From positions 1 to 33,794 of the forward strand of contig JAJDBW010000083.1 of NCBI GenBank assembly GCA_029261155.1: a stretch of DNA of 33,794 nucleotides. The letters are read 5' to 3'. The notes under the pieces are model-generated. The model saw only the letters and a program-made list of their open reading frames with translations. It made no database searches and was not told the origin of the DNA. This document shows, piece by piece, positions 1,139-31,110 of the stretch. This stretch comes from Nitrospirota bacterium. GTDB taxonomy: Bacteria > Nitrospirota > Nitrospiria > SBBL01 > JAADHI01. The translations under genes and the position numbers were made by a program. Each line of letters opens with the position of its first letter. Position 1 is the first letter of the stretch.

Positions 1139-1990
1139 ATGGCAGTCAAACAAGTAGTAAACCGGCTTCTTCTATCTGTGACGGTTGTGGCGATCACTCT
1201 CTTTGTTGGAGGGAATGCGCAGGCCATCGATAATATCACGGATCAGAATACAGCCGATAGTGTGAACTTCGGTTTTAATCCGAATGTCAACCTCATTCCA
1301 GCAGCAACCAGGGACACCACTGTAGGTGGTCCTTGTTTTAAATGTCCGAATACGTCTCCTGATGCGGGCGGAACCACAGCCGGTGCGCTGACGGACAACA
1401 TGGACGGGATTATCAAAACCAACAATCTCGCCAATGTTGGCCAAGAGGGTTTCCTGCCCACGCTTCAAGGGCAGAGCGGTATCCCGGGTGGCCTCGTAAA
1501 CAATGCGAGTGGCTTCACCGTCACCATCAGCACTCCGGGGATTGACTTCCTGGATGCGGGTTCTCCGGTGGCGAATCCCAACCCGACAGTCGATCTCGAC
1601 GGCAATCCTTTAGGTACCGTGGGGACAGCGGGCATGAGCATGGGATTCAGCAACTCGTTTACATTTAGACCTGGCGCTGGCTCGTTTGCAACACAAAATA
1701 TGGTACAGTCCACTTTTACTGGCCAAGACAGCGAAGATAGTGTCCAGTTGGTTCGGTTCATCGACTCCTTTGACCAAAGCACGCCGCAGGTTCTTGTTTC
1801 TTCAGGCGCTGTGGATGCAACGGTCAATTGGGATCAGACCATTCAAGAAGGCGGTTTCTTGTTGAGCAACAATGTGGGTTCCTTTACCTACAACGGCAAC
1901 ACCGTCTTTCCGGCAGCAGCAGCGCCGACAGGTCCGGGACAGACCCAAGGTCTGGCACCGACTTGTATTGGTGGTGGTGGAGTCTGCTAG
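1139..1990 (+). CDS. Secreted protein of unknown function, Gly/Asn/Thr-rich, Cys-containing
   Basis: The 283-residue product begins with a clear signal peptide: MAVKQ, a hydrophobic core and a cleavage site after NAQA (about residue 29). The mature chain is low in charge and rich in Gly, Asn, Thr and Ser, as in beta-rich surface proteins. It carries two cysteine pairs, CFKC near residue 65 and C-I-G4-V-C at the extreme C-terminus. I recognise no family. The start is set by AAGGAGG at 1124-1130, eight bases before the ATG; an upstream in-frame ATG at 1070 lies inside the promoter and is rejected. It is the first gene after a strong promoter and is followed by a terminator, so it is probably made in excess of the genes downstream. 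It may be cargo of the large outer-membrane protein two genes on (inference). Confidence 0.85.
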   Translation: MAVKQVVNRLLLSVTVVAITLFVGGNAQAIDNITDQNTADSVNFGFNPNVNLIPAATRDTTVGGPCFKCPNTSPDAGGTTAGALTDNMDGIIKTNNLANVGQEGFLPTLQGQSGIPGGLVNNASGFTVTISTPGIDFLDAGSPVANPNPTVDLDGNPLGTVGTAGMSMGFSNSFTFRPGAGSFATQNMVQSTFTGQDSEDSVQLVRFIDSFDQSTPQVLVSSGAVDATVNWDQTIQEGGFLLSNNVGSFTYNGNTVFPAAAAPTGPGQTQGLAPTCIGGGGVC

Positions 1991-2073: not shown

Positions 2074-3129
2074 ATGGACAAAGGACTCAAGACAAAAACG
2101 GGAATAACTTTTCTCACAGCGATCGTTATTTTTTTTGGCGGATTTGTGGGGGAGGCCTTTGCTCAAATTGGACCGTCTGGTAATAACTTTACAACTCAAA
2201 CTTTAACCAACCAAGACAACAGCAGTTTTCTACACAATACCGTCAACGACCAGTGTTGTTTTGAGCGCTTAGACGGAACCGCAGTTGATCGGGGCCTCAC
2301 GCCGAACCTTTTTGGTTTTCGCGCGGGCTTCGATCAAGATGGCGTCGACTTTAGAGGAGACGATAACACGCATCGGGGTTGTATCGGAGATATTTGCTTC
2401 TCCATTCCTGCCATGCATGCGGGCGCGGACACCCAGTTCGGAAACGGTGTACCGGTGGGGTCGAGCGAGAGCGTGCTTCCTTTTCAATTACAATCCAACC
2501 TAACGGTGTCGGAACAGCTCGTCGCAACTGACGGTGGCGGCGGTTTTGGTGGCGGCTTCGGCGGCGGAAACTCTTCCGCACCTTTTAACGTCGATTTTTC
2601 GATCAGCCATTCACAAGCCCTTTTTTCACGCCCCGACCCGAATGGAAGCGGCAATCGACTCAATACTATCGTGTTTGCCTTTGATCAATCCGTCCAATCG
2701 GGCGTACCTGGTGGAAGTCGCGGCGGGCCCATTTCATTTCTTAATGGCGATAACCGAGACTCGGGTGAAGGTTCGGGCTGTGATTTTTGTGGAGACCAAG
2801 GAGAGCGCGTCGCCAGACAACAAGATTTTGGCATGTCGTTTACCATTTTATCGACAACAGACAGCAACGGTAATATGCTTGGCACAGCAACCGGGACATT
2901 TCAACAAACGCTTACCATGAGTGATGTGTTGGCGCCAAACAATACGGCATCATGCGGGACGACTTGCATCGGACAAATGGGGCCAGTGACGATTGGAGGC
3001 GCGTTTACTTTTGACGGAACATTCGTGAATATTACCACTGACAGTATCGATATCAACGGTGTCCCCCAAACGGTGGGTTCAACCGACCCGCTTGGTGTCC
3101 CCACCAACCAAACCATCGCAGTCCCTTGA
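2074..3129 (+). CDS. Secreted protein of unknown function, Gly-rich with cysteine pairs
   Basis: The 351-residue product has a signal peptide (MDKGLKTKT, hydrophobic core, cleavage after AFA near residue 31). The mature part contains a Gly-rich linker (GGGGFGGGFGGG, about residues 150-165) and several cysteine pairs (DQCCF, GCIGDICF, GCDFCGDQ, SCGTTC). The C-terminal half, from about residue 250, alternates polar and hydrophobic residues (FQQTLTMSD, IGGAFTFDGTF) as in beta-sheet or small-barrel domains. No known family is recognised. Like its upstream neighbour it is a low-charge, Gly/Asn-rich exported protein with a Cys-x-Gly-rich character, so the two may be distant relatives. The reading frame stays open upstream to 1828 but that part lies over the terminator and the previous gene; the signal peptide fixes the start at 2074, although no strong ribosome site is visible. 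Only three bases separate its stop from the next gene. Confidence 0.82.
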   Translation: MDKGLKTKTGITFLTAIVIFFGGFVGEAFAQIGPSGNNFTTQTLTNQDNSSFLHNTVNDQCCFERLDGTAVDRGLTPNLFGFRAGFDQDGVDFRGDDNTHRGCIGDICFSIPAMHAGADTQFGNGVPVGSSESVLPFQLQSNLTVSEQLVATDGGGGFGGGFGGGNSSAPFNVDFSISHSQALFSRPDPNGSGNRLNTIVFAFDQSVQSGVPGGSRGGPISFLNGDNRDSGEGSGCDFCGDQGERVARQQDFGMSFTILSTTDSNGNMLGTATGTFQQTLTMSDVLAPNNTASCGTTCIGQMGPVTIGGAFTFDGTFVNITTDSIDINGVPQTVGSTDPLGVPTNQTIAVP

Positions 3130-3132
3130 ACG

Positions 3133-6100
3133 GTGTCCACTGCGTTAAAGGGGCTTAATCGTCTCGTTTCCAATACCTTTTTAATTTTTTTATTTCTTTC
3201 CTTTTCCTTCTCTTCTTCCGTTTTTTCCCAAGTATTTCCTGAAGCCTCCGACGTAATATCCGAGAAGGAACTTTTCGATCAAGGTCTTCGTTTCTTGGAA
3301 AAAGCAGATTTGGACAATGCGGTTGAGGCCTTTCGATCAGTTCTTCAACAAAACCCGAACAACCTTCTCGCGCATCTCAACCTGGGTATTATTTACAATC
3401 GATCCGGAAAAAGGGATTTGGCTATTGAATCCTTTAAGGCCGCTGAGCGCTTAAGGCCGGATCTCCTTCAACCCCCCTTGCTCTTAACCCAAGTTTATGT
3501 TCTTGAAGGGCGCATCGAAGAAGCGGAACAGTCCGTGAAGCGGGCCATCGCCAATGATGCCTCGAATGCACAAAGCCATTATCTTCTGGGACTCATTTAC
3601 CGGGATCAGAACCGTTTCCCGGAAGCCATTTTCGAATTTGAAACAGTCCTCACTTTAAAGGGCGATGAGGCCAGTCGTAAAGGGGCACAAACGCAAATTG
3701 ACGAGTTTAAGAACAGGGCCGAGCTTCACCTCAATCGAGGTCTTGCCTTCTTTAAGGCCGACCGCTTCGAGCAGAGCTTGGAAGAATTTGAACAGGTTCT
3801 GGTCCATAGTGCGAGGAATTATATCGCTTCCTACTACACCGCCCTGATCCATAAACTTTACAATCGGCTCGAAAAAGCCGAGACGGCTTTACTTGCCGCT
3901 CTCCAAGAAAAACCAGATCTCACGATTGCCCGTCTTGTCTTGGGTGAAACCTACCAACTGCAGGGACGTGTCCGGGAAGCGATCTTGGCTTATCAAGCGA
4001 TACGCGATGAAGCCCTTGATCCCAATAGTCCAGAAGTGGCGGTTGCAAAACAAAAACTCAGCCAGATGGGGGAGACCCCTGAAATAGGTGAAAAGATAAC
4101 TGAACATCTTAAAAAAGGGGTGGCCTTCATAGAAGAGAAGGCTTTCGAATCGGCCGAACTCGAATTTCACGCCGTGCTCAAACTGATTCCTCAGAATATC
4201 GTTGCGCATTTCAGTCTCGGTCTTATTGCGATTCAAAAGAAGGAAATCCAAGAGGCAGAAAGCCTCTTTCTGAAGGCCGTTGAAATCGACCCGAATCATT
4301 TTTTAAGCTTAATGCAGCTCGGGGCGATCTATGAAACACGCATTTCGGGAAAAAACGTGAGCGACCTCTTCGATGATAAGCGGGCTGGCCAACGGCAAGC
4401 TGAGATCGACAAGGCCATCCAAATTTACGAACGCGCCCTCGCCGCACAACCTCAGAATCCAACACCCCTATACCGCATTGCTGTAATCCATGAAGAAACC
4501 CTATCCTATAAAGCCGCAATTGCGTCTTATAAAAAAGTCCTTGTCTTGAAAAGCGCGGAAGAAAATCCCGTTTACAAAATAGCCCAAGCCAAGGTGGATG
4601 AGTATGAAAAACGCTATAACGTGACCTTCAACGATGCCTTCATAAGCTACGACAGCAACACCAGCCAAAACAACACACCGCTAAGCGAGGTAAAATCGAA
4701 TTTAAATCTGGGCCTCGCTTACTTTTTTGTGAAAACAAACCGTTTTCGCCTGCCGCTACAGGTGCAAACCAACCATCTGTATTTTCATCGGCAACAAACC
4801 TATTTAAACAACGAGAGTCTCTCGGTTTCTTTTATCACGACGACGCCTTCTCAGCTCACCCTGGTGCAAGGCTATACGCTGCGTTATGGTTTCCAGGGTG
4901 GAACGAACAGGGCCAATGAGTCTCTTTATAAATCGGATATCTATAACGCACAGATTCTAATGCGCGGTCGCTTCCCGACCCTTACGACCTTGAGTTTTGA
5001 CTATATCGAAAACGAATCGTTTACGATTCCATTTTTGGACGCGACAAGGCAGATCGCCAAACTCTCTTTGGACCAAGATCTGAGTGTCGGTGGTTTTTAT
5101 TTTGGAAGTTTCCAATTGGCCTATGGCTATGCGGATGACAATATTCTTGCTAATGACCTGGCAAACCGATCTCAAAGCCTGTCTCTCAGTTATCGCATCC
5201 CATTAACGGAAAAATTAACGAGCACTGTTCAGCTGACGGGCGCCATAACCAAATTCCGAAATCCCGACTCGACTGCGCAGGTCGTAGACGGCCTGGTTCG
5301 TTACCGCCGGAATGAATATACCTCTTGGTCGCTTGGTTTTACCTATCGCTTACAGCCTGGCCTCATCCTCTATGCGAATTTCTCAAGAGACGAAAATCGA
5401 TCGAACCTCGTCACAGCTAGAGATGTCATTCTTGAATTACTGGCAAACGGAGGATCGACAGGTGTCGTGCCAGAACTCCTCCGTGAAGACTCGGTTCTTC
5501 GTGAATCTAATCAGGCCCCTCCGCTGGGTTCTTATCAGCAAAATGTGGTGTCCTTTGGCTTGAGCTATGCGACGGATCTTAGGGTGCCCGCGCCCCAATG
5601 GTCGGGGCTGGGAAAGCGCCTAAATGTCGCGCTCCTTACCGGATATTATCGCCCTTCGCTGAAAGAGCTTGATCAGGTGATGGCGGACCCGGCGCTCATT
5701 ATCAGCCAAGATCCCAACAGTCTTATCCCCTCGAATCCCGATTTTCGATCCGAAGACAGAAATCTTTTTGTCCCTGAGATTGAAGGCGATTATTCGTCGG
5801 GTGTCGAAGTGGAATGGGAACTAAGCCCCAAGCATGCCTTGGTCTTTAGTCTGCTTCAATGGCAAAACGCTTCCTTCAATCGTGACGACATTCCTTTATT
5901 GTTGGACCCGAACAGAGACCCGATTATCGTCCCGAGAAGCACCCGCTATAACCTGTCCATCAACCAATTTTTACTGGGATGGCGTTATTCCTTTTGGTCG
6001 CGCCCAGAAAAAGGCCGCCTATTTTTTAATTTTGGCCTGCTCGGCGCAGCACTTAGCGACTTTACCATCGATTCACTCGTTCAGGTCGAGAACCCGCCAG

Positions 6101-7929
6101 CGGGTTTTCAACCGATCGCCTCTTTCGGTTCGATGGAGGCTCGTGGGAGCGGCTTCGTCACGCGATTCGGCATGGGCGGTGAATATTTCCTTACCCCATG
6201 GTTTTCGTTCGGACTTAATGCCGCTTATGTCTTCGGCAATATTACGAAGTTGACGATTGAACGGGATTTTCCGGCCGATTTCCAAGGCATTCCGCCGGGC
6301 TTGCCGGGTATCGTCCCCAGCCCGTGTTTCCGCCAAGTCGACGAGCGGACGGTAGACGAAGTCGTTCAAATCGCCGTTTGCGAACAAGATTTGGAAGTCG
6401 ATGTTTTTCAACGGAGAAGCCTGCGGATCCGACTTGATGGGTATGCGGTGGATGCGGCACTGCGCTTTCATTTTGGCAAAGCCGCAGTGGCCGGGAGCCT
6501 GCTCGATCGCTTTTTAAATGGAGATTCAAGAGAAGCGGAGGCTTCCCTGTGGAAGACCCTTCGCGCCAATTTATCGGTGAATGGCTCTCTACAAAATGAA
6601 ACGGCTTATCGTATTTTCGAACCGGTTACCTTTACAAAAAACCTATATCTCCTCCGGCTCAATACCCACTATTCTTTTTCGAGCCGTTTTCACCTCACCA
6701 CAAACGTCCGAACTTTCTACGATGCGATCTATGATCTCGTCGATATCGATACCATCAGCCCGAGACGTTTTCCGAATACGGTCTTGACGCAGATCCCACA
6801 GAATCCAAGCTCCGAAGAGGTTGCGTCGGTTAATATCGATAATTCGAGGGATGTCGAAATCGTAAAAAGGGGCTTTGAGTTCAGAGAGATATTCCTCGAT
6901 ATCAATACCAAGAAGGTCGATCTTCGCCTGGGTCGCCAAATTGTCCGTTGGGGCGTCATCGAGGGCGCGCGTGTCGTGGACGAACTGAATCCCTTCGACT
7001 TCTCCGAATTTATTTTGAGGGAAGTCGAAGACCGTTTTATTCCACTTATGATGGTACGAACAAAATTTTACCCCGGTAACTATACCTTCGACCTGGTCTG
7101 GATTACGGAAGTGGAGCCGCACAAGCCGGCGCCGGCGGGAAGCGAATTCGAACAGTTCGAAATCCTTCCCGGTTTTGTCCCGCCCGAATCTTTCCTCGAT
7201 TCATCGCTTAATCTTAAAGACAAGGCCTTTGAGAATACCGAAGTGGGCGGACGCTTGATCGGCAATTTCTCGGGATGGGAATTGTCTGTCTCGGGTTTGT
7301 ATACTTGGGACGATTTCCCTTCCAGTTTCCGTGTGATCCAAGGGAATGTCGATAATCCTTTCGACAATACCATTGAAACGACCTTTACGCCTGAGCTCAA
7401 ACGCATTACGGTCATCGGGACCACCCTTTCCAAAAGTTTTGGAAAAGTTGTCCTCAATAGCGAATTCTCCTATACCTACGACAAATTTTTCGGAACGCGC
7501 TTAGAAGTCGGCGGTCTGGATCCGGGTATTCAGTTGGGCGAAGCACAACGGGACTACATCAAATATGGCCTCGGTTTCGATTTCAGCCTCTATAATATCG
7601 ATTTTTCGACCGTATTTCTCGAACAACGAATCTTTGATTGGCAACCGGCCATTTTACAGGACGAAGTCGACTCCGTGGTCTCGTTGTTTTTGAGGAAAAG
7701 CTTTTCAAATGATCGGATGGGCGTCCAGTTGCTCACGCTTTATTTTCTGAACGAAAACGATTTCTTATTGCGCCCGCGCCTTGACGCCAGTATAACCGAT
7801 GCCGTCAAGGCGCGATTCGGAGGGGATTTTTTTATTGGGGACCGGGGCGGAACCGTTGGTGAATTCGATTTTATCGGATTTTTCAACGACAGTGATCGAC
7901 TCTATCTTGAAGTTATGTACAGTTTTTAG
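3133..7929 (+). CDS. Giant outer-membrane protein: TPR domain plus two beta-barrel regions (DUF1302-like C-terminus)
   Basis: This 1598-residue protein starts at GTG three bases after the previous stop, giving a signal peptide (hydrophobic residues 14-32, cleavage near FSQ-V). Residues about 40-490 are roughly ten tetratricopeptide repeats, for example AHLNLGIIYNRSGKRDLAIE. From about 495, after YDSNTSQNN, the sequence alternates like membrane beta-strands up to ALRFHFG near residue 1112, as in TPR-barrel proteins of the Slam/DUF560 style. A second barrel-like part follows (about 1150-1598). It contains LRLGRQIVRWG and ELNPFDFSEF, which resemble DUF1302/alginate-export-type porins, and ends in LYLEVMYSF with the terminal Phe expected of BAM substrates. 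Known TPR-barrel proteins usually have one barrel. The likely role is outer-membrane export or assembly, with the periplasmic TPR domain binding cargo from neighbouring genes (inference). A Bcs/Pga-type polysaccharide exporter is less likely, as no polysaccharide enzymes are nearby. Confidence 0.88.
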   Translation: MSTALKGLNRLVSNTFLIFLFLSFSFSSSVFSQVFPEASDVISEKELFDQGLRFLEKADLDNAVEAFRSVLQQNPNNLLAHLNLGIIYNRSGKRDLAIESFKAAERLRPDLLQPPLLLTQVYVLEGRIEEAEQSVKRAIANDASNAQSHYLLGLIYRDQNRFPEAIFEFETVLTLKGDEASRKGAQTQIDEFKNRAELHLNRGLAFFKADRFEQSLEEFEQVLVHSARNYIASYYTALIHKLYNRLEKAETALLAALQEKPDLTIARLVLGETYQLQGRVREAILAYQAIRDEALDPNSPEVAVAKQKLSQMGETPEIGEKITEHLKKGVAFIEEKAFESAELEFHAVLKLIPQNIVAHFSLGLIAIQKKEIQEAESLFLKAVEIDPNHFLSLMQLGAIYETRISGKNVSDLFDDKRAGQRQAEIDKAIQIYERALAAQPQNPTPLYRIAVIHEETLSYKAAIASYKKVLVLKSAEENPVYKIAQAKVDEYEKRYNVTFNDAFISYDSNTSQNNTPLSEVKSNLNLGLAYFFVKTNRFRLPLQVQTNHLYFHRQQTYLNNESLSVSFITTTPSQLTLVQGYTLRYGFQGGTNRANESLYKSDIYNAQILMRGRFPTLTTLSFDYIENESFTIPFLDATRQIAKLSLDQDLSVGGFYFGSFQLAYGYADDNILANDLANRSQSLSLSYRIPLTEKLTSTVQLTGAITKFRNPDSTAQVVDGLVRYRRNEYTSWSLGFTYRLQPGLILYANFSRDENRSNLVTARDVILELLANGGSTGVVPELLREDSVLRESNQAPPLGSYQQNVVSFGLSYATDLRVPAPQWSGLGKRLNVALLTGYYRPSLKELDQVMADPALIISQDPNSLIPSNPDFRSEDRNLFVPEIEGDYSSGVEVEWELSPKHALVFSLLQWQNASFNRDDIPLLLDPNRDPIIVPRSTRYNLSINQFLLGWRYSFWSRPEKGRLFFNFGLLGAALSDFTIDSLVQVENPPAGFQPIASFGSMEARGSGFVTRFGMGGEYFLTPWFSFGLNAAYVFGNITKLTIERDFPADFQGIPPGLPGIVPSPCFRQVDERTVDEVVQIAVCEQDLEVDVFQRRSLRIRLDGYAVDAALRFHFGKAAVAGSLLDRFLNGDSREAEASLWKTLRANLSVNGSLQNETAYRIFEPVTFTKNLYLLRLNTHYSFSSRFHLTTNVRTFYDAIYDLVDIDTISPRRFPNTVLTQIPQNPSSEEVASVNIDNSRDVEIVKRGFEFREIFLDINTKKVDLRLGRQIVRWGVIEGARVVDELNPFDFSEFILREVEDRFIPLMMVRTKFYPGNYTFDLVWITEVEPHKPAPAGSEFEQFEILPGFVPPESFLDSSLNLKDKAFENTEVGGRLIGNFSGWELSVSGLYTWDDFPSSFRVIQGNVDNPFDNTIETTFTPELKRITVIGTTLSKSFGKVVLNSEFSYTYDKFFGTRLEVGGLDPGIQLGEAQRDYIKYGLGFDFSLYNIDFSTVFLEQRIFDWQPAILQDEVDSVVSLFLRKSFSNDRMGVQLLTLYFLNENDFLLRPRLDASITDAVKARFGGDFFIGDRGGTVGEFDFIGFFNDSDRLYLEVMYSF

Positions 7930-8218: not shown

Positions 8219-11200
8219 ATGCTTTACCGACAATTGAAATACATTCTCACCTTTTTTCTCTTCAGCAGCATCGCGCTCATTGTCAGTTGCCACTCCGATC
8301 CCTTTCCTGTGGGAGAAGAATTTACGGAGGGCTTCCAAGTCCCTTTTGTCACAACGCATAACTTTAATTTTAAGACGGGCTCGGCAACAATTTCAGGTGT
8401 TGAGGGCAATATTAAAATTGTTTCAGGCTCGGATGTTCAGAACCTAATCTCTTCCGCGCCCGGCGCGCTTCGGCAAGATGCCACGAAGGGGGTTATTGGC
8501 GGTCTTGTCGTCAACCGATTCAATTTGCCTTTGGAAAACGTGGCCATTGGTGGGACGGACGCCACAGGAAAACCGGTTCGGGATGCCAATGGAAGACTCA
8601 TCATGGGGGTTAAGAATATCGCCGGCGATTTAATCCCTCAACTCTTTTACAACAGCATTAACGGCGCACCCGAATTTATTAATCTAAAAGGTACGGGGCA
8701 GTCCGGTGGCTTCACCGTTTTTAACGTGCCACCCGGAGAGATCTTTATCCAAGCCACGCGAGGCGGTCGAGGGAATGGCCGAGTAAGCGTTTACTCCGGT
8801 TCCGTTTCCATTACCTCGCTCGATGTCTTTCCCGTGGCCTTGCCTTTTGTCGATGTTCTTGGTGTGGTGACGGAAGCCGATGGACTCACACCGATTGCCG
8901 GGGCCAATGTCTCTTTTCCTGGGCTTGAAGGCAATGTTGTGACCAATCACCTCGGAAACTTTGCGGGCGCGGGCTTTATTTCCGAAAGTAATCTTATTTT
9001 TAAAATGAGCACGCCGGGCCATCTTGACACCTACCAGGAAGTCGCAACCGATTTAAGCCTTCTTCAAGGCGGCACTGTTTTCTTGGATGTCCGGCAAAAC
9101 CTGAGTGCGTATTCAACGCAAGACATCCTATCTTTTTCACAAGATGCGGGCGTCGTGTTAATCCCAGGCCGGGGCGTTATTACTGGAAAAATCCTCGAAT
9201 CCTTTGCACGTCGGAACAATGGCGTGCTTCAGGCCACGGATGCAGCCGGTCAAGCCCTCGGTACCGTGGTTTACTTTAACGCCCAAACGAATCGGCCCGA
9301 CCCCAATTTAACGGCTTCAACGCTCAACGGGCGATACATCGTCTTCAACCTTCCGCCAGGCGACATTTATTTAAGGACGAACGCCAGCAATTCCTCGCAA
9401 ACCGGCATTGATGCCAAGTCAGCCGCGACGGCGATTGTGCGCAACTTTTCCGATAGTGTTTACATCAAAGATATGCCGCTCCAACCGGTCTTACGTGAGG
9501 ATAACAATCAAGCCATGACCGTTCAGCTAAGCGGCTTTGTTACGGAAGAAGACGGCATTAGCACGGTAGACAACGCATCGATCAGCTTACTTGGTGTTGC
9601 AGGGACTTATCCTTCGCAGTCCGACGGCGCCTATACCATCCCGAAAAATGCGGGTAAAGACGCCGTCACGCCCTTTATGGCCAATGGCAGTTACTTGGTC
9701 CGGGTCGAAAAAGGAAGCCATGTGGCCACCTATCAAACCATTGGGGCAGGGAGCCGCGATCGCGTGAGAGATCTCACTATCGTCAACGCGGCGAGCGTGA
9801 AACCCATTGCAGGCCGGGGACAGATTATGGGGCGCGTCGTCAATGCCCGACCCGGCAGCGAAGCGAAAAATGTTACCCTAGAAGCCACCCATATGATCAC
9901 CGTAGATCATCAAATTGTGACCACCGAAGTCCCTATCGGGACGATTGAATATCACAACGGCACAGCTTTTGATCCTGCTTTAACGGCGACATCGGATAAC
10001 GGGCGCTTCCTTATTTCGAACCTCCCTGAAGGTCTGATCATGATTAAAGTTGTGTCTTCGGACGATTCCGGAAACCGAATTGTGCGCGTTTTTCCGGATG
10101 CACTGACGCTTTCTAATCTTTTTGTGAACCATGTCCCCGTCGTCGTTCCTGTGGCGGGACAGGTGGCGGATCTTCAAGATCAACCCTTGTCGGGCGTCAA
10201 CCTCTCCGTTCTTGGTGAAAAAAAGACCTTTAGCTCGGAGGAATTTAATTCGGGCGTGCTTTTTAATGCCAACAGCAAATTCGTCATTAAGGCGGAGAAA
10301 CCCGATTATCCGAATGCCTACAATTTTCATCTCGAAACCGGTTTTTCCGGGCTGACAAACCAAAGCATCCGGATGATGTCACGGGCAAAACTCACCGAAC
10401 TCGCTAAAAAAGCGGGAACCGGGGTCACCCTCGATCCAGAGAAAAGCGTCATTATCGGCCAAGTGGTGGAAAACGATTTAATCCCGACCTCCCCAACCGC
10501 CCTCGGCCCATCGCCCCAAGCCCTTGCCGCGGGTTTCTTTAACGAAGACAACTTTGTCGATTTGGCTATCGCGCTCGCCCCCAACCAGGTTTCTATTTTA
10601 CTCGGACGCGGAGATGGGACCTTCGATAGCACTTCCGTCCCCAATATTACCGTGGGCAATAATCCGCAATCGATCGCCGTCGCCGATATCGACCAAGACG
10701 GTCGTCTGGACCTGGCCGTCGCCAATCGTGACGACAACGATATTTCAATTTTGTTCGGTCGACCCGATGGAAAATTTGTCGTGCGCGCGGAACGCATTAG
10801 CGAAAAAGATGCCGCAGATATTGTTCAAAAAGGACCTCGTTTTATTGATGCTAGAGATATGAATCAAGATGGTTTTGTGGATTTAACCGTTTCCAACGCA
10901 GGCTCTGATAGCATTTCGAGGCTTTTCGGCGACGGCAGCGGTAATTTTTTGAAGATCGATGGGAACCAGCTGATTTGCGCATCGCCTTGTGCCGTCGGGA
11001 CTCAACCTGGGGCGATTGCCTTTGGCGATTTCGATGCCGATCAGCAAACCGATTTGGCGGTGGTGAATGAAGGGTCCGGAACGGTGTCGTTGCTCCTCAC
11101 ACGTGAGCCCTTGTCCACCTTAAGCGTGGGCGACACGCCCATTGCGCTTGCGACCCAGGATTTCGACGGCGATGCCATTCTCGATCTTGTTGTCCTGAAT

Positions 11201-12319
11201 GCGGGGTCGAACACCCTGAGTGTTTTTCGAGGAACCAACCGCGGCGATTTCGAGACGGTCGATTGTCTACCCGAAACATCGGAAGCCGACGATTGTCCTC
11301 TTCCCGTGGGGAGTCAAATGACGGGGATGACCGTGATCGATTTTGATCAAGATGGACGCCCCGATCTTGCACTGACGAACGCGGCCACACAAGGCGTTTC
11401 TTTCCTTTTAGGAGACGGGGCTGGTCGATTTCAAATCTCCACGAAAACCGTCGCCGTCGGCCAAATGCCCAATGCGCCGATCGTGGCCGATTTCAATCTA
11501 GACAATCAACCCGACTTGGGGGTGATCAACACGGGTACCGCGAGCTTGTCCTCGCTTCTCAGTGCAAGAAATCCAGTCTCCGGCGTCGTGGTCGGAAGCC
11601 GCGCCGAAAACAGTTTGCCCGTGGGCAAGGTTTTTTACTTCAACGACAGCCTCAACGGCTTTGTGAATGGGAGCGGACAAAATATGGACCGCACTGCCAG
11701 CAACGGCCACTTCATTGTCTTTAATGTGCCCGTCGGTTTTGCCCTGCTCCGCGCCCTTCCGGAACAATCAAACAGCACCTTGTCCGGCAATGCCATTGTG
11801 AACCTTTTTGAAGCGGACGCCTTTGTCTATGACCAGCTTCGGGTCAGTCGTGAATTGCCGATGACCGTATCGCTCAAGGGCGTGGCGTGCCGACCACTGG
11901 GCGATATTTGTACGCGGGTCGGCGGCGTGGGCATCACCTTTCCGGGCAGTGAAACCGATGTTGTCTGTCTCCCGGGTCCGGCCTGTACGTCGGATCTCGA
12001 CAATGGCGCGTTTGAAGTTCGTCTTCCCGCCCACAACGAATTTGTGATTAGAACGAATGCACCCAATGCCTTCCTGCCTGGAGACTCGGACGGCGATGGC
12101 ATCGCCGATGCTGCGGACAATTGCCCAAACATCTCTAATCCGGATCAGGCTGATGTGTCTCCAACCAATGGAATCGGCGACGCCTGCGACTTGGTGATTA
12201 TCGATTCCGATGGCGACGGCATAGAAGACCCGCAAGACAACTGCCCGCAAACACCGAATGTGGATCAACGCGACTCCGACCAAGACGGCATCGGTGACGT
12301 CTGCGATCCGACACCCTGA
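8219..12319 (+). CDS. Giant surface lipoprotein: carboxypeptidase-regulatory-like repeats, FG-GAP/VCBS propeller, thrombospondin type 3 repeats
   Basis: The 1366-residue product has a lipoprotein signal with lipobox I-V-S-C24. Up to about residue 745 it carries three long repeats of a two-part unit. Each holds a segment like NGRYIVFNLPPGDIYLRTNA (versus GGFTVFNVPPGEIFIQATRG and NGRFLISNLPEGLIMIKV) followed by an Ig-like SGFVTEEDG/GVVTEADG domain, typical of carboxypeptidase-regulatory-like folds. Residues about 765-1115 are FG-GAP/VCBS propeller blades (DIDQDGRLDLAVANRDDNDI, DFDADQQTDLAVVNEGSGTV), whose Asp loops bind calcium in relatives. A fourth repeat unit follows (HFIVFNVPVG), then calcium-type thrombospondin 3 repeats (DSDGDGIADAADNCP; DSDGDGIEDPQDNCP) to the end. 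It is probably an elongated, Ca-stabilised cell-surface adhesin or sensor rather than an enzyme. It follows the outer-membrane barrel gene and is a candidate cargo. No ribosome site is visible. Confidence 0.88.
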   Translation: MLYRQLKYILTFFLFSSIALIVSCHSDPFPVGEEFTEGFQVPFVTTHNFNFKTGSATISGVEGNIKIVSGSDVQNLISSAPGALRQDATKGVIGGLVVNRFNLPLENVAIGGTDATGKPVRDANGRLIMGVKNIAGDLIPQLFYNSINGAPEFINLKGTGQSGGFTVFNVPPGEIFIQATRGGRGNGRVSVYSGSVSITSLDVFPVALPFVDVLGVVTEADGLTPIAGANVSFPGLEGNVVTNHLGNFAGAGFISESNLIFKMSTPGHLDTYQEVATDLSLLQGGTVFLDVRQNLSAYSTQDILSFSQDAGVVLIPGRGVITGKILESFARRNNGVLQATDAAGQALGTVVYFNAQTNRPDPNLTASTLNGRYIVFNLPPGDIYLRTNASNSSQTGIDAKSAATAIVRNFSDSVYIKDMPLQPVLREDNNQAMTVQLSGFVTEEDGISTVDNASISLLGVAGTYPSQSDGAYTIPKNAGKDAVTPFMANGSYLVRVEKGSHVATYQTIGAGSRDRVRDLTIVNAASVKPIAGRGQIMGRVVNARPGSEAKNVTLEATHMITVDHQIVTTEVPIGTIEYHNGTAFDPALTATSDNGRFLISNLPEGLIMIKVVSSDDSGNRIVRVFPDALTLSNLFVNHVPVVVPVAGQVADLQDQPLSGVNLSVLGEKKTFSSEEFNSGVLFNANSKFVIKAEKPDYPNAYNFHLETGFSGLTNQSIRMMSRAKLTELAKKAGTGVTLDPEKSVIIGQVVENDLIPTSPTALGPSPQALAAGFFNEDNFVDLAIALAPNQVSILLGRGDGTFDSTSVPNITVGNNPQSIAVADIDQDGRLDLAVANRDDNDISILFGRPDGKFVVRAERISEKDAADIVQKGPRFIDARDMNQDGFVDLTVSNAGSDSISRLFGDGSGNFLKIDGNQLICASPCAVGTQPGAIAFGDFDADQQTDLAVVNEGSGTVSLLLTREPLSTLSVGDTPIALATQDFDGDAILDLVVLNAGSNTLSVFRGTNRGDFETVDCLPETSEADDCPLPVGSQMTGMTVIDFDQDGRPDLALTNAATQGVSFLLGDGAGRFQISTKTVAVGQMPNAPIVADFNLDNQPDLGVINTGTASLSSLLSARNPVSGVVVGSRAENSLPVGKVFYFNDSLNGFVNGSGQNMDRTASNGHFIVFNVPVGFALLRALPEQSNSTLSGNAIVNLFEADAFVYDQLRVSRELPMTVSLKGVACRPLGDICTRVGGVGITFPGSETDVVCLPGPACTSDLDNGAFEVRLPAHNEFVIRTNAPNAFLPGDSDGDGIADAADNCPNISNPDQADVSPTNGIGDACDLVIIDSDGDGIEDPQDNCPQTPNVDQRDSDQDGIGDVCDPTP

Positions 12320-12358
12320 GTAGGTCTCGTCTATTATCAGGTCGTATAAAAGAGTGTA

Positions 12359-13606
12359 CTAAGGCGAAGGTGCTGGATGAAAATCTGCACTGGCATGACG
12401 TGAAAGGTTGGTGGCCGTACTCTCGTCGCAGCTTGTGATCTTGCTGCCGGCCCCGCTGCATTGCATTACAAAAACGTCCTCGTTTCCGCTTCGAGTGGAG
12501 GAAAAAAGCACTTTCTTCCCGACTGCACTTGGCGATAAGAAACTCGGGTTCGATTCTTTTGCCCCGTTCGTCGTTAAGCGGTTCAGATTACTTCCGTCTT
12601 TGTCCATGACGTATAGGTCGAAGTTGCCATTCAGATTAGACGAAAAGACGGTTTGATTGCCATCGGGCGAAAAGCTTGGTTCAAGGTCACTTGCCCCGTT
12701 TTGTGTCAACTGCAGCACGTTTGACCCGTCCTTGTTCATCAGAAAAATCTCAAAATCGCCATCTCGATTTGAAGTGAAGACAATTTGACTGCCATCGGGC
12801 GAAAAACGCGGACCTCGGTCGTCCGAGGTATTTTGAGTGAGCTGGCGGAGATTGGCCCCCGTCCTGTCCATGAGATAAATTTCGGAATCGCCGTCACGGT
12901 TAGAGATGAAGACCATGTCTTGTCCATCTGGCGAAAAGGCCGCTTGTTGGTCGGTCGCGGTCGGGTTGAGGGTTAAATTTGTCGGCTGTTGTCCGTTTCG
13001 GTCGATGGTATAAATATCGAAATCACCCGTGCGATTCGATTCGAAAACGATGGACTGCCCATCGGATGAGAATCGGGGGCGTTCATCTGAGATGAGGCTC
13101 GTCGGATCGGTATTATCTCTTAATGTGTTAATGGTTAGGGGTCTCACGCCACTCCCGTCGATCTCCATCAAATAAAGATCGCTGTCGCCGTCACGGTCGG
13201 AAGAAAAGACAATCACCGGTGTAAAAATAAAGGCATCGCTTTGTTCCGTAATTTGCCCCAGGGCTGTCACGGTGAGCGGCACCGGCCCGGAGCGGAAGAC
13301 GGGCTGCGTCGTGACCAAGAGGGTTTCAAAGTTGGGCGCACTGACATCGGTTCCGAACTGATTGCCGAAAGTCACCACGGCATCCTGGGCGAAATTGCGT
13401 CCGTGAATGGTGACCCGCGTTCCTCCAGTGACCGGTCCGAGGGCACCACCTTTGGCGGTGTCAATCGAGACAATCTCGGGCACCTGTCCACCTGGGTCCG
13501 AAGCCCCGCAGGCGTTTAAACCCAGAAACAGTAAAGCGGGAAGAAGACTGTAGACCGCGGGCATTAAAAGAAAAGGACGTTTTCTAAAGGGAAAATACTT
13601 ATTCAA
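12359..13606 (-). CDS. Lipoprotein with IPT/TIG domain and TolB-like PD40 beta-propeller
   Basis: From the TTG at 13606 the product has 415 residues. A basic n-region (NKYFPFRKRP) is followed by a hydrophobic stretch and lipobox L-N-A-C33. Residues about 43-130 form an IPT/TIG domain (PEIVSIDTAKGG, GGTRVTIHGRNF). Then come six or more PD40 repeats of the form FSPDGxxIVFxSNRDGDxxIYLMxxDG, a TolB-like six-bladed propeller (about 133-410). Such propellers usually bind proteins or peptides in the periplasm or at the surface. A start at the ATG 13564 (401 aa) is possible but would leave a signal peptide with no positive charge. The TTG overlaps the last codons of the HNH gene upstream and has GGAAAG before it, so translation is probably coupled. 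It is not true TolB, which lacks a lipobox and has a different N-domain. Confidence 0.8.
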   Translation of the reverse strand: MNKYFPFRKRPFLLMPAVYSLLPALLFLGLNACGASDPGGQVPEIVSIDTAKGGALGPVTGGTRVTIHGRNFAQDAVVTFGNQFGTDVSAPNFETLLVTTQPVFRSGPVPLTVTALGQITEQSDAFIFTPVIVFSSDRDGDSDLYLMEIDGSGVRPLTINTLRDNTDPTSLISDERPRFSSDGQSIVFESNRTGDFDIYTIDRNGQQPTNLTLNPTATDQQAAFSPDGQDMVFISNRDGDSEIYLMDRTGANLRQLTQNTSDDRGPRFSPDGSQIVFTSNRDGDFEIFLMNKDGSNVLQLTQNGASDLEPSFSPDGNQTVFSSNLNGNFDLYVMDKDGSNLNRLTTNGAKESNPSFLSPSAVGKKVLFSSTRSGNEDVFVMQCSGAGSKITSCDESTATNLSRHASADFHPAPSP

Positions 13607-14078: not shown

Positions 14079-14645
14079 ATGGAGCAGGCGTGGATGACAT
14101 TGGAGGATTTCTGGCGGTACTGCGGAAACCATCCTCTCAGCCCGCTCCTGCGGCTCTTGCTTTCGTCGGACGGGAGCATGGTGAGATCGCTAAAGGGGCT
14201 GTTCCTGGTGCCCACCTCGCTGGAAGTCGTCGATCAAGCGGAAAGGCTGCTTGACGATGAGTCGTCCACGCGGCTTGAAGTGCCCAAGGGAGAAAAAGCC
14301 ATCGATCGAACCGTTTGGCTGTCCGTAAAAGTGGGGCCTTCGGAAGGAAAACGACTGGTCTTTGCACGCTCGCTTTTTCCGATCTCGAAGACCCGTCCGG
14401 ATCTTTATCAAGAAATGCGATTGGGGGAGACCCCGATCGGTGAAATCATTGAAACCCGCGCATTATCGACCTGGCGAGATCGCTTAGAAATCGCTTATCT
14501 ACCCTTTCCGGAGGTGGCCTCCGGACTCGGCCTAGCGGAGGACCACTTGTTTTGGGCAAGACGTTATCGACTTACGATTTCGGGAACGGTCTCCGCAATT
14601 CTTTTCGAAGTGTTTTCTCCTCAGCTCTCGTCTTTTTCTTCCTAA
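14079..14645 (+). CDS. ubiC: Chorismate pyruvate-lyase (UbiC)
   Basis: UbiC removes pyruvate from chorismate to give 4-hydroxybenzoate, the ring precursor of ubiquinone and related quinones, in the cytoplasm. The 188-residue product is slightly longer than E. coli UbiC (165). It shows the family hallmarks: ARSLFP (active-site Arg region), MRLGETPIGEII, and near the C-terminus FWARRYRLTISG followed by ILFEVF with the conserved Glu. No signal peptide is present. The start follows a promoter so closely that the mRNA may be leaderless. The 3' end overlaps the next gene by 94 bases in another frame, and ubiA comes after that, so the three are probably one transcript. This supports a 4-hydroxybenzoate-based quinone pathway. 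Confidence 0.88.
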   Translation: MEQAWMTLEDFWRYCGNHPLSPLLRLLLSSDGSMVRSLKGLFLVPTSLEVVDQAERLLDDESSTRLEVPKGEKAIDRTVWLSVKVGPSEGKRLVFARSLFPISKTRPDLYQEMRLGETPIGEIIETRALSTWRDRLEIAYLPFPEVASGLGLAEDHLFWARRYRLTISGTVSAILFEVFSPQLSSFSS

Positions 14646-15499
14646 GTGTTGTGCTCCAAAACGTCCTTGCCTCTAACACCGCTGCGCGAGAAGAGAGTCC
14701 TTTGATAAACGAACAGTCTACGACGACGACTGACCTTCATTTCAAAGACATGATTTGGATCCCCGACGGCCCTTTTATCATGGGCACGAACGAAGTCGAT
14801 GTCGAAAACGAAGGCATGCAACTGGGTTTTCCTCAGCCCTGGTTCGAGGATGAAGGCCCACAACACGAGATCGATTTGAAGGGCTATTCTATCGACCGGA
14901 CCGAGGTCAGCGAGGCCGACTACTTAAACTTCGTCCGCGCGACCGGCCACCGGCAGCCTCCACACTGGCAACATGGCGCCTACAAAGTCGGCACGGCAAA
15001 TCATCCGATCACTTTTGTGGACTGGTACGACGCAAACGACTACTGCCGCTGGCTCGACAAGCGCCTGCCGACGGAGGCGGAGTGGGAAAAGGCCGCGCGT
15101 GGACCAGAGGGTCGACGCTATCCCTGGGGCGAGCGTTTTGAGATCGGACGGGCCTATCTTTCTCCAGCCTCCGACGTTTTAAATAAGACGGCGCCTGTCG
15201 GTCAATATCCGCAAGGGGCCAGCCCCTATGGCGTGTTGGACCTGGTGGGTAATGTCTGGGAGTGGACCGACAGTTGGTACTTGCCCTATCCCGGAAGTGA
15301 TTTGAGAAAGCCGGAATTCGGAATGAAACATCGTGTGGTGCGGGGCCTTTCCTTTCACTCCTTGGGTCACTACCCCGGTAATGCCTACTCTCGGGTGTTG
15401 GCGGTCTACGCCCGCGCTTCGACGCGGTCCTACGACCCCCCTGCCGAACGGCTGGGCGACTTAGGTTTTCGCTGCGCCAAAGATGGAGAAGGGCCTTGA
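14552..15499 (+). CDS. Exported SUMF1/FGE-fold domain protein without the catalytic cysteines
   Basis: The 315-residue product starts at TTG 14552, with GGAGG at 14537-14541, deep inside ubiC. This gives a signal peptide (NSFRSVFSS, hydrophobic, cleavage near VLA-S, about residue 41). Residues about 65-312 are a SUMF1 fold: MIWIPDGPFIMG, RLPTEAEWEKAARG, YPWG, SPYGVLDLVGNVWEWTDSW and a final GFRCAKD. In true formylglycine-generating enzymes the RGGSW region leads to a Cys pair. Here it reads RGLSFHS followed by no cysteine until GFRC, so formylglycine synthesis is unlikely and a structural or binding role is more probable. It shares the motif WYLPYPG with the cytochrome-linked homologue at 21008, marking the two as close paralogues. 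Its stop overlaps the ubiA start. Confidence 0.82.
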   Translation: MGKTLSTYDFGNGLRNSFRSVFSSALVFFFLSVVLQNVLASNTAAREESPLINEQSTTTTDLHFKDMIWIPDGPFIMGTNEVDVENEGMQLGFPQPWFEDEGPQHEIDLKGYSIDRTEVSEADYLNFVRATGHRQPPHWQHGAYKVGTANHPITFVDWYDANDYCRWLDKRLPTEAEWEKAARGPEGRRYPWGERFEIGRAYLSPASDVLNKTAPVGQYPQGASPYGVLDLVGNVWEWTDSWYLPYPGSDLRKPEFGMKHRVVRGLSFHSLGHYPGNAYSRVLAVYARASTRSYDPPAERLGDLGFRCAKDGEGP

Positions 15500-16368
15500 A
15501 TTTTTTGGTTCAAAAAAGACATGAGGTTGCCAAACTCATCCGGCTGGATAAGCAATACGGGACTTTACTCTTGCTCTTTCCGACCCTCTGGTCCCTGATT
15601 GTCGCTTCCGAAGGTCGGCCGACTTTGAAGCATCTCGTTCTCTTTTGCCTGGGTTCTTTTTTTATGAGAAGCGCCGGTTGTGTCATGAACGACATGGCCG
15701 ATCACACCTTCGATGCCCAGGTTGAGCGCACTAAGAATCGGCCCTTGGCCGCGAAACACTTGAGCCTGATGGAAGCGCTGATCGTGCTGGCGATTTTGCT
15801 GAGTTGTGCTTTGGCGACCGTGCTTTTTTTGAATCGGTTTACGATTCTCCTCAGTTTCGCTGCATTGTTCTTCGCCGCGATTTATCCCTTTGCCAAACGG
15901 CTAACCTATCTACCGCAAATCGTCCTTGGCATCGCCTTCAGTTGGGGAATCCTGTTGGCTTGGGCCGCCGTGCGAAACACACTTTCTCTCACGCCCTTTC
16001 TTATTCTCCTGGCAAACCTCTGCTGGGCGACAGGCTACGACACTATTTACGCCCTGATGGATCGGGAAGACGACCTACAAATCGGTGTGAAGTCGACGGC
16101 GATATTATTCGGGGAAAAAAGCTGGTTGGCCGTGGGCGGTTTTTATACCCTCGTTGTGATTTTTCTCACCTGGGTCGGGTGGCTTTCGGAGATGTCGACT
16201 GCCTATTATCTGTCGCTCGTACTCATCGCGGCCTTTTTTCTCTTTCAGTCATTTAAGCTTAAAAATTTACACGCCAGGCCAATGCTTTTTTCGCTCTTTC
16301 GGGCGAATGTTTGGGTGGGTTTGATGGTCTTAATCGGCTTACTCGTCAACTATCATTTTCAGTCTTAA
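15496..16368 (+). CDS. ubiA: 4-hydroxybenzoate polyprenyltransferase (UbiA)
   Basis: UbiA attaches the isoprenoid tail to 4-hydroxybenzoate in the inner membrane, using Mg-bound polyprenyl diphosphate. The 290-residue product has about eight or nine hydrophobic helices and both Asp-rich motifs: N65-D-M-A-D69-H-T-F-D73 and the second motif ending D189-R-E-D192-D193 after GYDTIYAL. It begins LDKQYGTLLLLFPTLWSL, typical of UbiA proper rather than MenA or heme O synthase. The TTG start at 15496 overlaps the TGA of the previous gene, and GGAG lies just upstream, so translation is probably coupled. With ubiC in the same operon and ubiD downstream, the substrate is most likely 4-hydroxybenzoate; the final quinone could be ubiquinone or methyl-plastoquinone. 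Confidence 0.92.
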   Translation: MNFLVQKRHEVAKLIRLDKQYGTLLLLFPTLWSLIVASEGRPTLKHLVLFCLGSFFMRSAGCVMNDMADHTFDAQVERTKNRPLAAKHLSLMEALIVLAILLSCALATVLFLNRFTILLSFAALFFAAIYPFAKRLTYLPQIVLGIAFSWGILLAWAAVRNTLSLTPFLILLANLCWATGYDTIYALMDREDDLQIGVKSTAILFGEKSWLAVGGFYTLVVIFLTWVGWLSEMSTAYYLSLVLIAAFFLFQSFKLKNLHARPMLFSLFRANVWVGLMVLIGLLVNYHFQS

Positions 16369-16416
16369 GCCCTTGTCATTATCGAATATCCTCCCACACA
16401 CAATAATGAGAAAATT

Positions 16417-17514
16417 TTGAAAAGACAGTCCGTCATTAAAAGATATCCAAAGACCGTTCTTTGTCTCGTGACCCTTATTCTGATTGTTTTCATCGATATT
16501 GTGGCAGCGAATTTTTTGTCGGCGATCGGTTTATATCAAGCCCAATTTAAGATTGAACGCCTCTATCGCGTACAGCACGATGTGTATCACCATAGCCTTG
16601 CACCCAATATCAGCCATTCTGATGCGAAGTGGGGGACGATCGGTTATCGGGTCAATACAAATTCTCTCGGCTTCAAAGACGGCCTGGCTAGGCAGGTCGA
16701 TCTCAATCATCCAAACCGCATCCTTTTTATTGGAGATTCTTTTACCGAAGGGGTTGGGTTTGAATATGACGAGACCTTTGTCGGTATCGTCGCCAAAGAT
16801 CTCGAGAAAGAGCATGTGGATGTTTTGAATGCAGCGGTTTCATCCTATTCGCCGATCATTTATCTGAGAAAAGTCGAGCACTTGATTCAAGATGTGAAAC
16901 TCCAATTTCGGCATCTTGTTGTCTTGATCGATATATCGGATATTTACGATGAGGCCCGGGCTTATACCTTCGATAATAGCAGGCATGTCGTGGATGCAGA
17001 TACGGCGAAGTCGAAGGAATGGGATGAAAAAATGAAAAACTTTATCACGAACAATACGATTGTCATCAGTACAATCCGCGTTTGGTTTAGAAAGATCAAA
17101 AAATCCGGTGAAGCCAAAAAGAAAGGCTTTGAAGGACTCAATCAGCATAAAGCTAAATGGACCTTTGACGACGATGCGTTTAACGATTACGGCAAGGCGG
17201 GTCTTCAATCTGCCGAGCGGCATATGTCGGCGCTCGCATCGCTTCTAAAACAACACGGCATAGAATTAACCGTCGTGGTCTACCCTTGGCCGGATCAAAT
17301 TCTTCAAAATGATATGCAGTCGAAGCAGGTTGTTTTTTGGGAAAACTGGGCGCAGGCGCATCATGCGGGTTTTATCAATTTGTTCCCTGAATTTATGAGT
17401 AACGAAAAGGCAGAAGACGTCCTGGATCGTTTTTTTATTGTGGGTGACGTGCATTGGAATAAAGCGGGTCATCAAGGCGTGGCAGAACATATCGTGTCGT
17501 ATTTAAAAAAATAG
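16417..17514 (+). CDS. Membrane-anchored SGNH/GDSL-family hydrolase
   Basis: The 365-residue product has a single N-terminal membrane helix (about residues 14-36) and an extracytoplasmic SGNH hydrolase domain. The nucleophile block reads ILFIGDS108FTEG, an NAAVSSYSP segment follows, and the catalytic Asp and His lie in D344-V-H346-W-N near the C-terminus. Such anchored SGNH proteins often act as acetylesterases or acyl-transfer partners on polysaccharides, or on lipids; the substrate here is unknown. The start is TTG 16417 (no ATG fits the membrane helix) with only a weak GAG upstream, so the start is the least certain part. It lies 48 bases after ubiA on the same strand, possibly the last gene of that operon, though no quinone role is evident. 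Confidence 0.83.
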   Translation: MKRQSVIKRYPKTVLCLVTLILIVFIDIVAANFLSAIGLYQAQFKIERLYRVQHDVYHHSLAPNISHSDAKWGTIGYRVNTNSLGFKDGLARQVDLNHPNRILFIGDSFTEGVGFEYDETFVGIVAKDLEKEHVDVLNAAVSSYSPIIYLRKVEHLIQDVKLQFRHLVVLIDISDIYDEARAYTFDNSRHVVDADTAKSKEWDEKMKNFITNNTIVISTIRVWFRKIKKSGEAKKKGFEGLNQHKAKWTFDDDAFNDYGKAGLQSAERHMSALASLLKQHGIELTVVVYPWPDQILQNDMQSKQVVFWENWAQAHHAGFINLFPEFMSNEKAEDVLDRFFIVGDVHWNKAGHQGVAEHIVSYLKK

Positions 17515-17608
17515 TTCATCGATGTAGCGATTTTAACAAGCGGGAATTGACGGGGGAGAAAAGGAGAGGCGCTTTCCTCAGGTCGTTTAATCCCCCCCCA
17601 AGGCTTCA

Positions 17609-19159
17609 TCAGGGGGAAGTGGATTTCTGATCTAAGACCCTACGAATGGCTAGGGCCAAATCTTTTTGCCTGAGGGGTTTTGTCAGGACCGTGTTGATCC
17701 CCAAGGACTGGGTTGCACTTTTTAGCTTATCGTCGCCGTATCCGGTCATAATAATCACTGGGATTTCTCTCGGTATGGCTTGCACATGTTCAGAAAATTC
17801 TGCCCCATTGATAAAGGGCATGGTCCAGTCGGATAGGACTAAATCATATCGGTTTGGATGCTGTTTAAGGAAGGCCAAGGCATCGCGACTGTTCTCGTAA
17901 ACCGCTACACGATAGCCGAGCTCTTCCAACATCTTCTTGATCATCGTTGCAACCACTTGATCGTCGTCGATGACTAAGATGGATTCCTGCCCGCCGATGA
18001 GTTCGACGACTTCGCTTTCGTTGACCTGTGGGATATTTTTTACGATCGGGAGATAAATATGAACGCGTGTGCCGGTTTCTAATTGACTCTCCACGTCAAT
18101 ATGGCCTTTGTGGCTTTGTACAATGCCCTGTACGACCGAGAGCCCGAGACCGGTTCCATGATCGATCGGCTTGGTGCTAAAAAAGGGCTCAAAAATGTGA
18201 TCCAGCGTTTTAGCATCCATACCCCGACCCTGATCGATCACGGACAAGCAGGCGTAGTCGCCTTCATGAAGGTTGGGATTTTTTAAGGCTGTTGTCGCGC
18301 CGACCTTTTTTTTCTTTAGCTCGATGGAGATCGTCCCGCTTTTATTTTCCATGGCCTGCCAAGCGTTGGTGCATAAATTAACGATCACTTGGTGCATTTG
18401 CGAGGCATCAGCCAAAATTTCACCGCAGGCGGGGTCGATGCCTTGCTGGATCTTAATTGTGTTCGGGATGGCGGGGCGTATCAGCTTTACCGCTTCTTTT
18501 ACGATCAAATCTAAACGGAGCGGTCTCCTTTCTTTTTCAACTTTTCGACTGAACATCAATATTTGCTCAACCAGTTCTTTGGCACGGCTTGCTCCGGCCA
18601 ACACCTGTTGCAGATTTCTATGCACCGGATCGGTCGGCTTGAGTTCCGAGAGCGCCATATCCGTGTAGCCCACAATGGGTGTAAGGAGGTTGTTGAAATC
18701 GTGCGCGATGCCACCGGCGAGGGTGCCGATGGTTTCCAATCGTTGAGACCGCAAAAGTTGAGATTCTAATCGTATCTTTTCTTCTTCGGCCCGTTTGCGT
18801 TCCGTGAGGATGCGTTCGAGGAAAAAGATAGAGAGTAGGGCCATGAGGCTGACAATGAGGCCGGGGAATTCACTCGTTTGTCCGGTGAGGGCGATGGCCC
18901 AAGATGTTCGTGTTGTCCAAAGCGTCAAGATCTGACGTAGCGCCATCATGCCCAGCATAATGGCCAGAAAGCCCATCCGCCAATCTCTCATCCGCCGAAC
19001 CAAGGCAATGGACCAGCCTAAGGCAATGATTCGGATAAAGATAGAGATAATGAGGATAAGGCCGATGCGCTTGCCCTCCTTTTTGTCTCGAAAAATATTT
19101 CGAGTTCGTCGGGCTTGATTGCTTCTGTTTCTCTTTGGGGCGTGTGACCCTAAACGCAC
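17609..19159 (-). CDS. Hybrid sensor histidine kinase with C-terminal receiver (orphan)
   Basis: The 516-residue product has a very basic N-terminus, three membrane helices (about 32-54, 62-80, 98-115) with almost no periplasmic loop, then a coiled-coil linker. The HisKA domain has H153 in GGIAHDFNNLL, the HATPase has NLCTNAWQAM, DQGRGM and GTGLGLSVVQG, and the C-terminal receiver (about 390-510) has ILVIDDD, phospho-acceptor D444 in LVLSDW and the Lys in LTKPL. It lacks a recognisable extracellular sensor domain, so it may sense the membrane or a partner protein. No HPt or separate regulator lies nearby. The GTG at 19159 is chosen because no better start precedes the first helix; its ribosome site is poor. 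It is divergent from ubiD across a 385-base region. Confidence 0.88.
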   Translation of the reverse strand: MRLGSHAPKRNRSNQARRTRNIFRDKKEGKRIGLILIISIFIRIIALGWSIALVRRMRDWRMGFLAIMLGMMALRQILTLWTTRTSWAIALTGQTSEFPGLIVSLMALLSIFFLERILTERKRAEEEKIRLESQLLRSQRLETIGTLAGGIAHDFNNLLTPIVGYTDMALSELKPTDPVHRNLQQVLAGASRAKELVEQILMFSRKVEKERRPLRLDLIVKEAVKLIRPAIPNTIKIQQGIDPACGEILADASQMHQVIVNLCTNAWQAMENKSGTISIELKKKKVGATTALKNPNLHEGDYACLSVIDQGRGMDAKTLDHIFEPFFSTKPIDHGTGLGLSVVQGIVQSHKGHIDVESQLETGTRVHIYLPIVKNIPQVNESEVVELIGGQESILVIDDDQVVATMIKKMLEELGYRVAVYENSRDALAFLKQHPNRYDLVLSDWTMPFINGAEFSEHVQAIPREIPVIIMTGYGDDKLKSATQSLGINTVLTKPLRQKDLALAIRRVLDQKSTSP

Positions 19160-19448: not shown

Positions 19449-19479
19449 TTGTACACATCCACCCTATTTAAGCTATAAT
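19449..19479 (+). promoter_or_regulatory. Promoter of ubiD
   Basis: A perfect -10 box TATAAT lies at 19474-19479. The best -35 is TTGTAC at 19449-19454 (19-base spacer) or TGTACA one base later (18-base spacer). The 5' leader would be about 60 bases and ends in GAGGAG six bases before the ubiD ATG. Confidence 0.6.
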
Positions 19480-19544
19480 ATCCCCCTCTTGGTGATACGG
19501 AAGGCAAAGCTTGTGTTTATACAGGCCGATTTTGAGGAGCAATA

Positions 19545-27323: not shown

Positions 27324-27339
27324 GGAGTCGGCATAAGAA

Positions 27340-27801: not shown

Positions 27802-27804
27802 CGT

Positions 27805-31074: not shown

Positions 31075-31110
31075 GAGCAGAACATGCGCCCCTGTTCATG
31101 AGGTTAAACC

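Follow-up and report, generated by a model that had tools for sequence, protein, structure and literature searches.

A single gene of one Nitrospirota family encodes a TPR arm followed by three predicted outer-membrane barrels

The gene at positions 3133-7929 of a Nitrospirota contig raises the question of how many outer-membrane barrels are carried by its product, how such a protein came about and what it might do in the envelope. The window, which is the whole stretch of DNA analysed (33,794 nucleotides), is one entire contig of 33.8 kb; the draft genome to which it belongs has 90 contigs and measures 3.56 Mb. On its plus strand the gene forms a single uninterrupted frame, which begins with GTG and encodes 1598 amino acids, about 175 kDa, with the C-terminal sequence ...YSF. 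The initial annotation had described a TPR domain and two successive barrels in one polypeptide; the frame, the TPRs, the DUF1302 barrel and the terminal Phe stood, but the barrels number three, and what had been taken for one first barrel (about residues 495-1112) splits into two, here called A and B. The DUF1302-like character of the last barrel, C, was borne out, as PF06980 matches residues 1181-1450 with 48.1 bits (50.2 in a second run) against a Pfam cut-off of 23.2. The architecture that very probably results, a signal peptide, a TPR region and three barrels in one chain, is given in Table 1 together with the neighbouring genes.

Table 1. Modules of the fused protein and genes next to it, with coordinates in the window.
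Feature	Residues	Positions	Strand	Basis or remarks
Signal peptide	1 to ~32	3133..3228	+	Translation read by eye: basic start, hydrophobic core, ...SVFS/QV
Periplasmic TPR region	48-478	3274..4566	+	Pfam TPR families, best E 2.3e-33; TPR profile match 48-478
Barrel A, 14 strands	495-815	4615..5577	+	AF2 strands, fold matches; separate relatives end here
Linker A-B	816-828	5578..5616	+	Strand limits in AF2 model; without signal peptide
Barrel B, 8 strands, OmpA/OprF/OmpW fold	829-1114	5617..6474	+	Prediction alone, fold matches, separate genes
Linker B-C	1115-1146	6475..6570	+	Open in 5/5 fused genes; without signal peptide
Barrel C, DUF1302, ~16-18 strands	1147-1598	6571..7926	+	PF06980, AF2 strands, porin matches
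Up0, predicted secreted protein		1139..1990	+	Start taken as Met before signal-like stretch
Up1, predicted secreted protein		2074..3129	+	Start taken as Met before signal-like stretch
Dn, lipoprotein, 1366 aa		8219..12319	+	Lipobox ...LIVSC; carboxypeptidase-regulatory-like, FG-GAP and thrombospondin-type-3 repeats (Pfam)

Residues 480-1598 were folded with AF2 from an alignment of 38 sequences; fragment tails, which were misaligned when fused and separate modules were put into one alignment, were trimmed before folding. The model, whose mean pLDDT is 75.4 and pTM 0.57, shows A with 14 strands, B with 8 and C with about 18. A resembles solved complete 14-strand barrels, namely CymA (Z 23.2, 281/309 aligned, 3.0 A) and OmpG (Z 21.3). 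B predicted alone has 8 main strands (pLDDT 90.9, pTM 0.88) and matches the OprF barrel (Z 17.5, 132/135 aligned, 2.0 A), OmpW (Z 16.8) and OmpA (Z 16.0). C aligns with 16-strand porins, among them OmpF and V. cholerae OmpT (Z 21.8, 284/302 aligned), and its strand number is uncertain between 16 and 18. Three closed barrels in one chain are thus predicted, whose mutual placement is not fixed by the model at this pTM. In sequence searches of the PDB, neither A plus B nor C found a relative when used as a single sequence, and profile searches of the same database yielded chance-level matches only.

Each module is also encoded as a separate gene in relatives, which upholds the gene fusion initially proposed as explanation. 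A, up to residue ~815, matches the barrel at the C terminus of separate TPR-barrel proteins (TPR-A), most of which end in Phe; B matches a separate protein of about 270-480 aa, which in most cases begins with a signal-like stretch and ends in an aromatic residue; C matches separate DUF1302 proteins. Most stand-alone relatives of every module have a signal-like N terminus and a terminal aromatic residue. The suggestion that the parts might be found as separate adjacent genes proved right: TPR-A and C, often with B, lie side by side in many Nitrospirota and in some Gammaproteobacteria. In many relatives the order is TPR-A, C and the lipoprotein gene Dn, and B and an Up1-like gene often precede them; Gammaproteobacteria and a second Nitrospirota type have the order C, B, TPR-A. 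Among the 53 separate C rows of the tree, A and B were present within the fetched stretch in 17 and A alone in 12 more; some separate C and B genes were found without A, and the parts are not always together. The source genome itself has separate paralogues: TPR-A, C and Dn on one contig (C18), B beside an MMPL gene on another (C78), and C, B and a TPR gene on a third (C52).

In a tree of DUF1302 domains (58 rows) five fused proteins form one clade (support 100), nested among genes of separate operons, and the same five group together in the tree of B (support 100). Because each tree shows one fused clade, a single fusion origin of the five genes is the simplest reading of the sequences, while separate fusion steps may have preceded their common ancestor; partial fusions (A-B only or B-C only) were absent among the fetched loci.

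Three of the other four genomes (G001, G005 and G007) carry collinear single-frame genes of 1574-1582 aa with 43-51% identity. In the fifth genome (G003) the gene is split by a contig end, and the two contig ends overlap by 145 bp inside the gene, with 144/145 positions identical. All five carriers belong to one Nitrospirota family; searches covering 270 genomes of this class and 396 genomes from the phylum, and a contig scan of which the best 80 of 146 loci were kept, found the fused gene nowhere else. Open frames of 1529-1729 aa in G010, G012, G260 and G261 were tried as further fusions and rejected, since stop codons between TPR-A and C make them separate genes. The wider relatives of the carriers include Ca. 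Manganitrophus; this tie is only taxonomic, and no link with manganese oxidation was found. In Ca. Manganitrophus GAC4 (L129, L103 and L127) the TPR-A and DUF1302 genes are broken by apparent frameshifts, which are probably sequencing errors in that assembly, and closely similar genes are intact in G260 and G263.

Both linkers of the fused proteins are short and variable. The hydropathy maximum upstream of B is 0.66-1.58 in the fused genes, compared with a mean of 2.34 for separate B genes, and that of linker B-C is 0.08-1.08, compared with a mean of 1.58 for separate C genes. Moreover, A has lost its terminal Phe in the fused proteins, where Thr, Met or Ala is found instead, as expected if its end stays internal; B retains RFHFG. 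The mature chain of the protein encoded at 3133-7929 has only two cysteines, C1065 (6325-6327) and C1083 (6379-6381), which have a spacing of 18 residues and both lie within the loop that connects beta7 and beta8 of B; the pair and its spacing are kept in 5/5 fused proteins, which suggests a disulfide in an extracellular loop.

Three other accounts of the gene must be weighed against these data. The beta-alternation is continuous along the sequence and no long soluble domain lies between the modules, as would suit one giant barrel, or a large first barrel (495-1112) followed by DUF1302; we consider this highly improbable, because A, B and C match complete barrels in the models, A fitting 14-strand barrels and C 16-strand porins. 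The prediction of residues 480-1598 contradicts it, as does that of B, which folds by itself as a confident 8-strand barrel, and A and B both have complete separate relatives with ends of their own. A fusion produced by sequencing or assembly error (a missed stop or a contig join) might be feared in a draft of 90 contigs, the more so as the site initially suspected, near 6480-6600, falls on a module boundary. This site is the B-C linker (~6475-6570), open in five genomes, and collinear frames in three further assemblies, together with the fifth split by a contig end, refute the error and leave it a negligible probability; the fused modules also make up a clade of their own and their linkers have no signal peptides. 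It is rather unlikely, though less so than the two preceding accounts, that the product is a precursor which is cleaved within the linkers to give three ordinary barrels that work separately. Short, variable linkers would suit such processing, and separate genes are the commonest state; on the other side stand the loss of A's terminal Phe, as for an internal end, and the fact that no processing site was recognised.

The reading that we favour is a chain of three uncut barrels, and its gene neighbourhood bears on its role. In nearly all related operons the gene after C or TPR-A encodes a homologue of Dn, and nearly all these homologues have a hydrophobic start and a lipobox-like Cys (the lipobox pattern overlooked some in which [AGS]C can be recognised on inspection). 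Dn adjoins the fused gene, has no TbpB-type domain in Pfam and is a candidate cargo or partner. One or two copies of Up0 precede each fused gene for which the upstream region was available, with homologues in L057, L058 (two), L059 and L061; the two in L058 are tandem copies at 10660-11505 and 11610-12437 of that locus. Up1 has local matches in L073 and L078 and is distantly similar to a protein encoded upstream of TPR-A in separate operons. A LolA-like gene is located upstream of the fused genes in L057-L059, an MMPL gene adjoins the separate B gene in L012, and BNR/YCF48 genes precede C in L086. Within the 33.8-kb window neither an MMPL nor a LolA-like gene was found, and LolA-like genes are located on other contigs.

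Several known systems share parts of this organization. BcsC, PgaA and PelB, which serve polysaccharide export and combine TPRs with one barrel, have the same periplasmic TPR arm preceding an outer-membrane barrel; they differ in having a single barrel each, and the NCBIfam model of BcsC matches only the TPRs of the fused protein (33.9 against a cut-off of 858). Among multi-barrel proteins, combinations with an 8-strand barrel reportedly prevail according to Solan et al. in 2021. Such proteins are a described class, the best-known example being GfcD (PMC11494523, PMC8592465), in which two barrels of 12 and 13 strands surround an alpha/beta domain (PMC11494523). The fused protein likewise has more than one complete barrel in the predicted models and single-barrel relatives for each domain, and it shares with the YjbH/GfcD family the presence of several barrels per chain, an origin by fusion and the involvement of an 8-strand barrel. 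GfcD has two barrels, however, whereas the fused protein has three, of three families, placed after a TPR domain and still visible as separate genes in relatives. A covalent pair of barrels, regarded by the initial annotation as very unusual, thus has precedents, and the present case concerns three barrels instead of two. The class is already known, and what appears to be new within it is that a TPR arm precedes three barrels, each of a different family; no such case was found in the literature searched, the architecture list of Solan 2021 being outside this comparison.

Slam proteins of the type XI system export lipoproteins or soluble proteins (PMC8406197) and have in common with the fused protein the N-terminal TPRs, a 14-strand barrel (DUF560, SlipAM) and an adjoining lipoprotein gene. 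The gene beside a Slam gene is that of its cargo, often a lipoprotein, and Dn is a candidate for such a role. In contrast to Slam, the fused protein passes neither Slam model and bears two extra barrels. With TPR_Slam (PF24575) it scores 26.5 bits, below the cut-off of 35.2, and four separate TPR-A proteins score 43-50 bits; with SlipAM (PF04575) its A barrel gives no match, and 5/29 A members match, one separate TPR-A being at the cut-off (22.5 vs 22 bits). The SlipAM search of the source genome was silent, as were all its controls, and it carries no weight. The third comparison is with AmeABCD, a working efflux system (DUF1302 / DUF1329-LolA / YCF48 / HAE3) in which AmeA is the DUF1302 outer-membrane member, AmeB belongs to the LolA family and AmeD is the RND protein (PMC6394551). 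The likeness lies in C, a DUF1302 protein, and in the LolA-like, MMPL and BNR/YCF48 genes near fused or separate genes of relatives; the difference is that C is joined to A and B, that a TPR-barrel and a lipoprotein are added, and that the Ame partner genes (DUF1329/LolA, YCF48, RND) are missing from the window.

By analogy with these systems we give a slight preference to a joined outer-membrane export complex made of a Slam-like TPR-barrel, an AmeA-like DUF1302 barrel and a small barrel, because the TPR_Slam and SlipAM scores of separate TPR-A proteins point to Slam-like (type XI) export, C is of the AmeA type, and LolA-like and MMPL genes are neighbours in relatives. Three neighbouring barrel genes (TPR-A, the OmpA-like B and the DUF1302 gene C) would have fused into one, and the whole chain would be exported once by means of the signal peptide at its N terminus. 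All the strand numbers predicted (14, 8 and ~16-18) are even and would place both ends of every barrel in the periplasm, so that the barrels could be strung together by short periplasmic linkers and could give a fixed 1:1:1 complex in the outer membrane. The TPR arm with A would act as a Slam-type export barrel, C as the DUF1302 outer-membrane part of an RND/LolA-type (AmeABCD-like) efflux, and B as an accessory barrel. The movement of envelope cargo would most likely be outward, the best candidates being Dn and the secreted Up0 and Up1; for Dn in particular a role as cargo is plausible but somewhat doubtful. With the same architecture, the protein could instead export or place a lipid or other apolar compound, in the manner of AmeABCD/HAE3, with Dn as a surface or structural partner. 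We consider this the less likely role: it agrees with the place of DUF1302 in Ame efflux (PMC6394551), with the link of DUF1302 to Tween20 growth and transport in P. putida (PMC10866462) and with the MMPL and LolA-like genes that in relatives are found alongside B or the fused gene, but the Ame system as described includes neither TPR-A nor a conserved downstream lipoprotein, and the window has no MMPL gene.

If the joined export complex is the right reading, the separate-gene relatives could represent an undescribed complex in which a lipoprotein exporter of Slam-like type is linked with a DUF1302 channel fed by RND/LolA. The fused chain could then be an export machine with three channels and the first heterotypic triple barrel to carry a TPR arm; we advance both ideas tentatively. 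Since fusions show which separate proteins work together, the three mutually unrelated barrels A, B and C are expected to act as one unit, and DUF1302, as well as the unannotated operons of TPR-barrel, DUF1302 and lipoprotein genes, gains a testable list of partners. The protein also offers a demanding test for outer-membrane assembly, as BAM would have to fold three barrels one after another out of a single polypeptide, and two of these barrels have ends that lie inside the chain.

Other genes were observed in the source genome. In its second, separate operon (L010, 8445-11198) the lipoprotein is followed by a 918-aa protein with kelch, laminin-G and PKD domains. In the window, chorismate-lyase-like, UbiA and UbiD genes of a quinone-type pathway occupy 14079-22057, with two formylglycine-generating-enzyme-like (FGE-sulfatase) genes interspersed, and an IS3-type integrase/transposase gene with an rve core is present at 24388-25218. 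Positions 26028-33255 encode in a row a porin-like protein, a 153-aa fragment similar to phosphate-binding proteins, a Cache hybrid histidine kinase and a response-regulator GGDEF/EAL protein, which possibly form a sensing unit.
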